The translations under genes were made by a program, and so were the position numbers. Shown here piece by piece: positions 27,826-30,800 of a DNA stretch of 64,000 nt (position 1 is its first letter; the number at the start of each line of letters is the position of its first letter). A model generated the notes under the pieces. It did not search any database. It was not told the origin of the DNA and saw nothing but the letters and a program-made list of their open reading frames with translations. Origin of the DNA: Apteryx mantelli (lineage: Eukaryota; Chordata; Aves; Apterygiformes; Apterygidae); assembly GCF_036417845.1 (NCBI RefSeq), contig NC_090017.1, forward strand, positions 186,001 to 250,000, in the 5' to 3' direction.

Positions 27826-30800
27826 CTGCACCGAAACGGGGCGAATTGGCCCCAAAATGGCCCCGCAACAGCCCCAAACACCCCAAAGCACCCCCAAAAC
27901 CACCCTGAGCCCCCCCAAACCGCCCTGAGCCCCCCCAAACTGCCCCAACCCCCCCGGACCGCCCCGTCCATCCCGGCTGCTCGGCCTCCTCAATGTTATC
28001 TGCACCGAAACGGGGCGAATTGGCCCAAAATGGCCCCGCAACAGCCCCAAACACCTCAAAGCACCCCCAAAACCACCCTGAGCCCCCCCAAACCGCCCTG
28101 AGCGCCCCCCAAACTGCCCCGAACCCCCCAAAACCGCCCCGTCCATCCCGGCCGCTCGGCCTCCTCGATGTTATCTGCACCGAAACGGGGCGCATTGGCC
28201 CCCAAAAACACCCCAAAGCGCCCCAAAACACCCCAAAGCGCCCCAAAACTGCCCTGAGCCCCCCCAAAGCCCCCCCCAGCCCCCCTGTGTCTCCAGGGTG
28301 TGTGTGGGGGGGCGGTTGGAGGGTGTTTGGCCGCCCGGACGCCTGGGTCCCCTGGGTGGGGTGGGGGCTCCCACGGGTGAGGGGTTTTTTTTGGGGGGGG
28401 AGGGAGACCCGCCCCCATGCACCCCCCCATGGGCCCCCTATGACCCCCATGCCCTGCACAGACCCCTTATGGGCCCCATAGACCCCCCATGCACCCCGTA
28501 GACCCCCTATGGGCCCCATAGACCCCTCATGCACCCCATAGACCCCCTATGGCCCCATAACCCCCCCCATAATTCCCCATGCACCCCATAGACCCCCTAT
28601 GGGCCCCATAACCCCCCCCATAAGTCCCCCATGCACCCCATAGACCCCCTATGGGCCCCATAACCCCCCCCATAAGTCCCCCATGCACCCCATAGACCCC
28701 CTATGGGCCCCATAAACCCCCCCCATAAGTCCCCCATGCACCCCATAGACCCCCTATGGGCCCCATAACACCCCCCATAAGTCCCCCATGCACCCCACAG
28801 ATCCTTTATGGGCCCCATAGTCCCCCATAAGCCCCCCCATGGGCCCCCTATAGCCCCATGCACCCCATAGCCCCCCCATGAGCCCCCTATAGCCCCCGTG
28901 CACCCTATAGCCCCTCCATGTGCCTCTATAGCCCCAATGCACCCCCCCGTGCACCCTATAGCCCCTCCATGTGCCCGCTATAGCCCCCATGCACCCCCCT
29001 ATGCACCCTAGAGCCCCTCCATGGCCCCCTATAGCCCCCATGCACCCCCCTATGCACCCTAGAGCCCCTCCAAGGGCCCCCTATAGCCCCAATGCACCCT
29101 ATAGCCCCTCCATGTGCCCCCTATAGCCCCCATACACCCCCCTAAGCACCCTAGAGCCCCCATGCACCCTCCTGTGCACCCTATAGCCGCTCCATGTGCC
29201 CCTATAGCCCCCATGCACCCTATAGCCCCTCCATGGGTCCCCTATAGCCCCCATGCACCCCGCTCGGCCACTCGTGTCCCCCCCAGCGCGAGCAAGACGC
29301 CACCAAAGCGGCTGCAAACGGGAGGTTCTTAGCGCGTTGCAACACGTGCGTTTGCACACGCGTGTGCGGTGCGCCCGTGCACACGCGTGTGCATGCGTGC
29401 AGGCACCTGCCTGGGCAGCGGGCGCCGGCCGGGTTCTCCGTGCGCGTCTGGGCACGCGTGTGCACGGACACGGCGCTCCGGGCCGAGGCGCAGGTGTGCA
29501 CCGAGCGCCGGGACGTGCACACCGCGTGCGACATGCAAGTGCCAGGGCGTGTGCACGCATGTGCCATGCACCAGGGTATGCACATGTGTGCAACGTGCAC
29601 TAGAGCATGCATGTGCGTGCAACATGCACTGGGGCACGCACACGTCTGCACTGTGCACCAGGGCATGCACACACGTGCACCAGGGCATGCACACGCGTGC
29701 AATGTGCAGATGCCAGGGCATGCACACGCGTGCAACATGCATGCACCAGGGCAGGCACACGCGTGCACCAGGGCAGGCACACGCGTGCAACATGCATGCA
29801 CCAGGGCAGGCACATATGCACACGTGTGCAACGTGTGTGCACCGGGGCGTGCACACGTGTGCACCATGCACCGGGGCGTGCACACGCGTGTGACATGCGT
29901 GCGCCGTGGCGTGCACACGCGTGTGCACGGTCTCAGCGCAGCAGCCGCGGCAGGAGCAGGGGGACGAGCAGCAGGAGCGGGACGGGACCGGGGGGCCCAG
30001 GCGTCCGGGACGGGGCCGGGCAGGGCTTGGCGGGGGCTGCCCCACACCGGGGGGGGGGGGGGGGACACGATGACACAGACATGGGGTCACTGCGGGGGGG
30101 GGGGGCCCAGGTGTCCGGGGCAGGAGGGGGCATTTGGAGGGGGGGGGGGAGATTCCTGTAGCCCTTCCCCAGGGTGTCCCCTCCCCCCCCCCGTGTCCCC
30201 CCTGTCCCCATCTTGGGGTCCCCCCTTGTCCCCCGGATCCCCGTCTACCCCTGAGTCATGGGGCCCTGTGCCCCCCCCCCCCATGTCCTTGTCCCCAATT
30301 TGGGGGTCCCCCAGTCCCCCCAGGTGTCCCCCCTCCAGGGCCACCCTGTGTCCCCGTGCTGTGTCCCCATGACCCCCCCGTGCCATGTCCCCCCCCAAGA
30401 TACCTCATCCCCCCGTGCTGTGTCCCCACCATGTCCCTCCATGCCCCCCATCCCCCCCATGCCACCCCATGTCCCCATGACATGTCCCCCCCGTGCCCCC
30501 CCTGTCCTCCCATGTCATGTCCCCGTGTCCCTCGTGTCCCCATGTCCCTCCATGCCATATCCCCATGTCATGTCCCCCCCGTGTCCCTCCATGCCCCCAT
30601 GTCCCCCGTGCCACCCCATGTCCCCATGTCATGTCCACCCCATGCTCCTCCATGCACCCATGTCCCCCTGTGCCACCCCGTGTCCCCATGTCCCCCCATG
30701 CCGTGTCCCCCCATGCCGCCCTATGTCCCCATGTCACGTCCACCCCATGCTCCTCCATGCACTCATGTCCCCCTCTGCCACCCCGTGTCCCCATGTCCCC

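Follow-up and report, generated by a model that had tools for sequence, protein, structure and literature searches.

A candidate H-type (GPI-signal) exon in the acetylcholinesterase gene of a bird

The acetylcholinesterase (ACHE) gene that occupies the minus strand from 34278 to 27704 of the 64,000-nt stretch of bird DNA analysed here (the window) contains an open frame that is a well-placed and well-formed candidate for an H exon and, on balance, appears to be real. The preferred reading, to which a probability of about 0.6 is assigned, is that positions 30036-29933 form a genuine working H exon of ACHE, starting at 30036 and carrying a linker invaded by repeat DNA. This reading is based on the place and phase of the frame between the last common exon (E4) and the T exon, on a usable acceptor, on a tail that combines a cysteine, a linker and a hydrophobic end, and on gene-like codons. 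Frame, phase, exon order, acceptor, composition and codon use are properties of the DNA itself. The features discussed are collected in Table 1.

Table 1. Positions in the window of the exons, signals and repeat copy discussed in the text (a slash marks an exon boundary)
Feature	Positions	Strand	Description
AChE first coding exon	32744..34278	-	1535 nt, ATG to ...NFARTG; ends ACC GG/GTAGGT
AChE last common exon (E4)	31286..31452	-	167 nt, DPNEPS...FLPKLLNVT; phase-1 donor G/GTGAG
Competing acceptor	30090..30111	-	13/16 pyrimidines; exon start 30089, 53 bases upstream of 30036
Candidate acceptor region	30037..30081	-	TCAT branch-like site, C16 tract (30064-30049), GGTGTGGGGCAG
Candidate H (GPI-signal) exon	29933..30036	-	104 nt including TGA stop; 34-residue tail
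Dispersed-repeat copy CCCGGACGCCTGGG	29996..30009	-	inside candidate exon, within codons for SRTPG
T exon	27704..27825	-	40 residues; Pfam AChE_tetra, E 1.3e-17
AATAAA, possible poly(A) signal	26503..26508	-	only one on the strand between 31286 and 20000; beyond T exon

The gene and its surroundings

The gene shows the features of a vertebrate AChE gene, including the cholinesterase catalytic domain, the two-Phe acyl pocket and the T tail. Its protein matches the Pfam family COesterase at E 3.5e-161 and has 158 matches in the PDB at E<=0.001, with AChEs leading the best 60 of the 158. The top match among these 60 is 4qww (897 bits), which is taken here to be the AChE of the snake Bungarus. The first coding exon, which presumably corresponds to mammalian exons 2 and 3 joined, reads T-G-D-P-N at the junction when spliced to 31452-31286. 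E4 ends at 31286 in ...AACGTCACCG/GTGAG, with the donor in phase 1 (ACC G/GTGAG). The acyl-pocket stretch ending in ...DHNVVCP is one letter off the Gallus entry (PMC3045457, Table 2) and, like the top match to a snake AChE, is consistent with a bird. In that table, the mammalian rows read FSF and the Bungarus row FPF, but the FAF of this stretch is also found in the Xenopus row. No relative of the AChE protein was found in the viral contigs searched, and in the prokaryote contigs none of nine pattern hits was confirmed.

Low-complexity and repeated DNA runs through the locus. The coding DNA holds triplet runs for Leu in the signal peptide (34210-34236) and for Gly (33412-33441); the catalytic part of chicken AChE carries a long insert. 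If E4 is read through into the intron, the frame meets no stop for 115 codons (30939-31285, minus strand) and encodes a Gly-rich repeat, so that an R-type tail in this gene would be long and of low complexity. A 173-bp repeat, present in 2.8 copies at 27802-28285, extends over the acceptor of the T exon and the initial ~24 nt of that exon. It gives rise to decoy acceptors followed by DNIEEAE at exon starts 28174 and 27999, and the frame from 27999 runs on into the real T exon. Regarding 3' ends, the AATAAA at 26508 may be common to H and T mRNAs. A search for five variant poly(A) signals yielded AGTAAA at 27160 and, between the H and T positions, CATAAA at 28810.

On the plus strand, a gene starts at 45858 with a signal-peptide start, METRLVLGAPVLLLL, and from 46313 onwards a Ser/Thr/Ala-rich repeat frame runs without a stop through 5896 codons, as far as the window reaches (64000). 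The gene at 45858-64000 is probably a membrane mucin, placed head to head with ACHE. Human ACHE is presumably adjoined by a mucin cluster in the same head-to-head arrangement. At 197-10879 (minus strand), Neuralized repeats of a NEURL4-like gene are present, with 7 of 10 tested frames matching Neuralized at E<0.01. At 18291-18863 (plus strand), a BAR-domain match that is weak and below cut-off (E 0.0017) looks ACAP1-like by eye. Since NEURL4 and ACAP1 both lie on a human chromosome other than that of ACHE, the neighbourhood in the window appears mixed.

Layout and coding character of the candidate frame

In mammals, the H exon is ACHE exon 5, which gives AChE-H, the red-cell form, and its place is after the last common exon and ahead of the T exon. 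The candidate occupies the same place, between E4 and the T exon, with a phase-1 acceptor whose AG at 30038-30037 directly precedes the exon start. Joining E4 to 30036 in phase 1 gives a tail with Cys6-Pro7 and a stop at 29933. The coordinates, length, sequence, phase and junction given in the first-pass annotation are all exact, as is its description of a tail with an early Cys-Pro before the stop. An early Cys, a Pro-rich linker and a hydrophobic, Leu-rich end together follow the GPI (H-type) plan. Cys6 precedes Ser10, the putative cleavage site, and is thus placed as the Cys of a disulfide between subunits should be. The linker had also been described correctly as Pro-rich, with the addition that it includes one copy of the dispersed repeat CCCGGACGCCTGGG.

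The candidate acceptor has 10 pyrimidines among the 16 bases at -20 to -5, compared with 6/16 for the real E4 acceptor and 12/16 for the T acceptor. Within 45 nt there is no second AG, and a TCAT ~35 nt upstream may, judged by eye, serve as a branch site. The bases adjoining the AG are G-rich. Thirteen AGs with exon starts from 30300 to 29960 were considered, of which three serve the Leu frame in phase 1. Among these three, 30036 has the best pyrimidine tract (5/16 and 2/16 for the others), and this start sets Cys-Pro near the beginning of the tail.

Codon preference was scored with the AChE core as reference. The candidate reaches a mean of 0.567, and the median of 32 core windows of 34 codons is 0.594 (10-90% range, 0.30-0.75). 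The frame is the best of the six, the next reaching 0.246. For stop-free frames of the contig matched for GC, the median is 0.045. The candidate's score is reached by 103 of 2253 such frames, and by 64 of the 2253 together with a GC pattern by codon position like its own, in a null set that may still include real exons. When GC is not matched, the fraction is 174 of 6897. GC by codon position is 0.88/0.65/0.94 in the candidate and 0.71/0.49/0.95 in the AChE core. The T bases of the Leu stretch hold one codon position across two interruptions, GTCCCC and CCGCGG. The codon evidence is partly tied to Leu content and, consequently, is not independent of the hydrophobicity test described below. The observed-to-expected CpG ratio is 0.80 in the candidate, 0.20 in the preceding 386 nt and 0.87-0.92 in real exons. 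However, high CpG extends downstream past the candidate stop to 29262, and the candidate's value is equalled in 24 of 130 sliding windows, so that CpG counts little as evidence.

The candidate exon must also be seen against the repeats of the region. The 14-mer CCCGGACGCCTGGG has 20 exact copies in the window in both orientations (for example, at 35060-35465 and 42067-42238) and 187 copies in the 186 kb upstream, or about one per kb of the contig. Among the copies listed, none falls in the three proven AChE exons (first coding, E4 and T). The copy within the SRTPG codons supplies nearly all of the putative Ser-Arg-Thr cleavage triplet. On another contig (C32), the CCCGGACGCCTGGG unit is arranged in tandem and matches nucleotides 20-45 of the candidate exon exactly. 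The candidate linker is therefore at least partly repeat DNA. Such a repeat can be tolerated in a GPI linker, yet it can also give the look of a fortuitous intron frame. Tandem-repeat masking covers 2516 of the 3460 nt between E4 and T, and the candidate exon stands in unmasked DNA. Because about a quarter of the interval is unmasked, the argument from this island is weak. Non-repeat DNA ends 7 nt past the candidate stop, and a minisatellite starts 8 nt from the stop.

The whole genome (1,504,198,195 bases in 408 contigs, with the window at C41:186001-250000) was searched at the DNA level. Among the best candidates scored, the exon is single copy at full length in the 1.5-Gb genome. The non-self matches are two partial ones at one place on C32 and a loose one in a GC-rich array on C18. 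An origin by duplication was considered and rejected, since three of the four matches scored, all but the exon itself, are repeat DNA.

Chance level and competing readings

To estimate how often a GPI-like tail arises, each AG of the 3460-nt interval that separates E4 from the T acceptor was treated as a phase-1 acceptor. Tails of 20-60 residues with a stop were counted, and terminal hydrophobicity was used as the measure. The 52 tails of the interval include a single one with such an end, the candidate, which reaches 2.52, followed by 1.22 for the next best. Dinucleotide shuffling of the interval produced a tail reaching the candidate once in 400 trials, and shuffling of the non-repeat island did not do so in any of 2000. 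Across the window, 4 of 1930 tails reach this level, namely the candidate and three nested tails that share one stop near 8.1 kb. As a control with real DNA, 196 kb of the same contig were used, consisting of 186 kb to the left and 10 kb to the right of the window. On both strands of the left part, 4 of 4999 tails (two independent) reach the candidate hydrophobicity, and 2 of 106 stretches of 3460 nt hold such a tail. On the right, the count is 3 of 457, one of them independent.

The first-pass annotation had proposed a GPI-signal check on the spliced tail. This was done with a fuller, home-made rule that combines a charge-free hydrophobic 12-mer, a small-residue site with suitable neighbours, and linker length. 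The Torpedo H tail and the presumed human H tail pass, and the T tail of the window, used as the negative control, fails. The candidate passes and, at each setting, is the only tail of the interval to do so. Between 4 and 9 of 110 neighbouring stretches of the contig also pass (4/110 at the strictest setting, 8/110 and 9/110 at looser ones). Among the passing tails, GLAATVLLIVSIVLTVLLVGARRRK resembles, by eye, a true membrane exon. Taken together, the shuffle and real-DNA counts put chance at ~0.2% to 4% when the rules are strict and at up to 8% when they are loosened. A chance origin of the tail is therefore unlikely, and the tests are notable without being conclusive.

The most serious alternative, still unlikely, is a fortuitous open frame in C-rich intron DNA, made of a repeat unit and a CTG/CTC-rich stretch behind a phase-1 AG, and never used. 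Tails that are equal or better are found at the rates just given for the neighbouring stretches, the linker holds a repeat, the bases beside the acceptor AG are G-rich, and the similarity to the presumed human H tail is not significant. However, such a frame would have to stand by accident at the place of the mammalian H exon and in the right phase. Its codon choice and GC by position are also those of the gene's own exons, the T bases of the Leu stretch keep one codon position across both interruptions, and one of the passing neighbours looks by eye like a genuine membrane exon.

The candidate could also be a relic: an H exon inherited from the amniote ancestor whose frame has stayed open but which this lineage has ceased to splice and which repeats are now invading. 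The repeat unit in the linker, the minisatellite beside the stop, the weak acceptor next to a stronger out-of-frame one, and the lack of reported H forms in birds in the excerpt of PMC3045457 all point this way. Nevertheless, the frame is unbroken and its codon use resembles that of the gene, properties that tend to fade once an exon has long been out of use, and the relic is improbable. More improbable again is a real H exon starting at 30089, from which the Leu frame would be reached through a C16 run that is mis-sized in the assembly or variable in length. The acceptor before 30089 is the stronger of the two (13/16 against 10/16 pyrimidines), and long C runs are error-prone. As assembled, however, this start puts the Leu-rich tail out of frame and opens a long frame lacking that end, whereas 30036 offers the best tract of the three phase-1 starts of the Leu frame and a Cys-Pro near the start. 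Even taken together, a relic or a differently started exon would be surprising.

If the frame is a working H exon, certain predictions follow regarding splicing, cleavage site, dimer, anchoring and tissue. With the donor at 31286 joined to 30036 and the T exon at 27825 bypassed, a 34-residue GPI signal would take the place of the tetramerisation tail. In the ER, the transamidase would attach GPI after cleavage near Ser10, which stands in S-R-T and 9 residues ahead of Val19. Cys6 would remain in the mature enzyme, where it could join two subunits into GPI-anchored dimers; the first-pass annotation predicted such dimers by comparison with mammalian red cells. A common genomic repeat unit may have been taken into the variable Pro-rich linker, where it would be tolerated.

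A broader proposal, put forward tentatively at somewhat short of even odds, is that birds keep a working ACHE H exon from the amniote ancestor. GPI-anchored AChE dimers would then be an old amniote feature that was missed because the gene lies in DNA that is difficult to sequence, being rich in GC and filled with repeats. If so, the expected sites of the dimers would be blood-forming cells or thrombocytes, and red cells would not have to carry them.

Comparison with known cholinesterase tails

According to the excerpt of PMC3045457, AChE-T is found in all vertebrate classes, and AChE-H in Torpedo, in mammals and perhaps in Xenopus. The same excerpt states that, as of 2011, AChE-H was unreported in birds or reptiles, a gap said to raise evolutionary questions, and refers to the opinion that GPI tails arose on several separate occasions. 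The first-pass remark that H forms are undescribed for birds agrees with this source, as far as its excerpt goes. Among the open-licence titles and abstract openings listed, no report of avian AChE-H appears, and a report elsewhere is possible. A bird H exon at the mammalian place and phase would speak for common descent, at any rate among amniotes, and would matter for the choice of the bird blood fraction in which organophosphate exposure is monitored. GPI-anchored AChE-H dimers occur in hematopoietic cells (PMC7876280, excerpt). Binding of AChE to erythrocyte membranes has been suggested in the literature; in the text excerpted, the supporting references concern exposed human workers. The terms 'erythrocyte' and 'red blood' are absent from the excerpt of PMC3314689.

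The candidate tail has no Pfam match at E<=1 and a single PDB match at E<=10, to a Pro-rich peptide (E 1.2). Against the presumed human H tail, its Smith-Waterman score of 47 is joint fifth in the six-frame window, with four places scoring above it and two tied. Shuffles of the whole tail reach this score in 21 of 5000 cases. With shuffling confined to the first 18 residues and scoring by global alignment, 410 of 5000 are equal or better, again against the presumed human tail. Residue homology was therefore rejected as proof of an H exon, as the human alignment is not significant in the window and Pfam gives no match. The likeness to the mammalian H tail noted at first pass concerns the plan (Cys-Pro, linker and Leu-rich end).

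With the mammalian H exon and its tail, the candidate shares its position, phase 1, the early Cys-Pro, a Pro-containing linker, a Leu-rich end and basic residues near the C-terminus. The human H tail has 43 residues. In contrast to it, the candidate is shorter, at 34 residues, its linker carries a local genomic repeat, and its residue-level similarity is not significant in this window. Among the best 60 of the 158 PDB matches, the AChE of 4qww is the closest solved AChE to the catalytic part, and its alternative tail presumably belongs to a soluble venom form and not to a GPI-anchored one.

The Torpedo H tail (PDB 2w6c, whose letters were matched except for the last residue) resembles the candidate in its early Cys, its polar linker, its hydrophobic C-terminus and its passing of the same GPI rule. 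Torpedo AChE-H is a GPI-anchored dimer, according to the excerpt of PMC3045457. Unlike the candidate, it has a Ser-rich linker and an end rich in Ile, Phe and Tyr in place of Pro and Leu, and the two tails have no evident sequence likeness. The H-type atypical BChE of medaka is likewise a vertebrate cholinesterase with an H-type tail, and the excerpt of PMC3045457 describes it as a GPI-anchored dimer; it is, however, the product of a different gene and not of an alternative ACHE exon, as the candidate would be.
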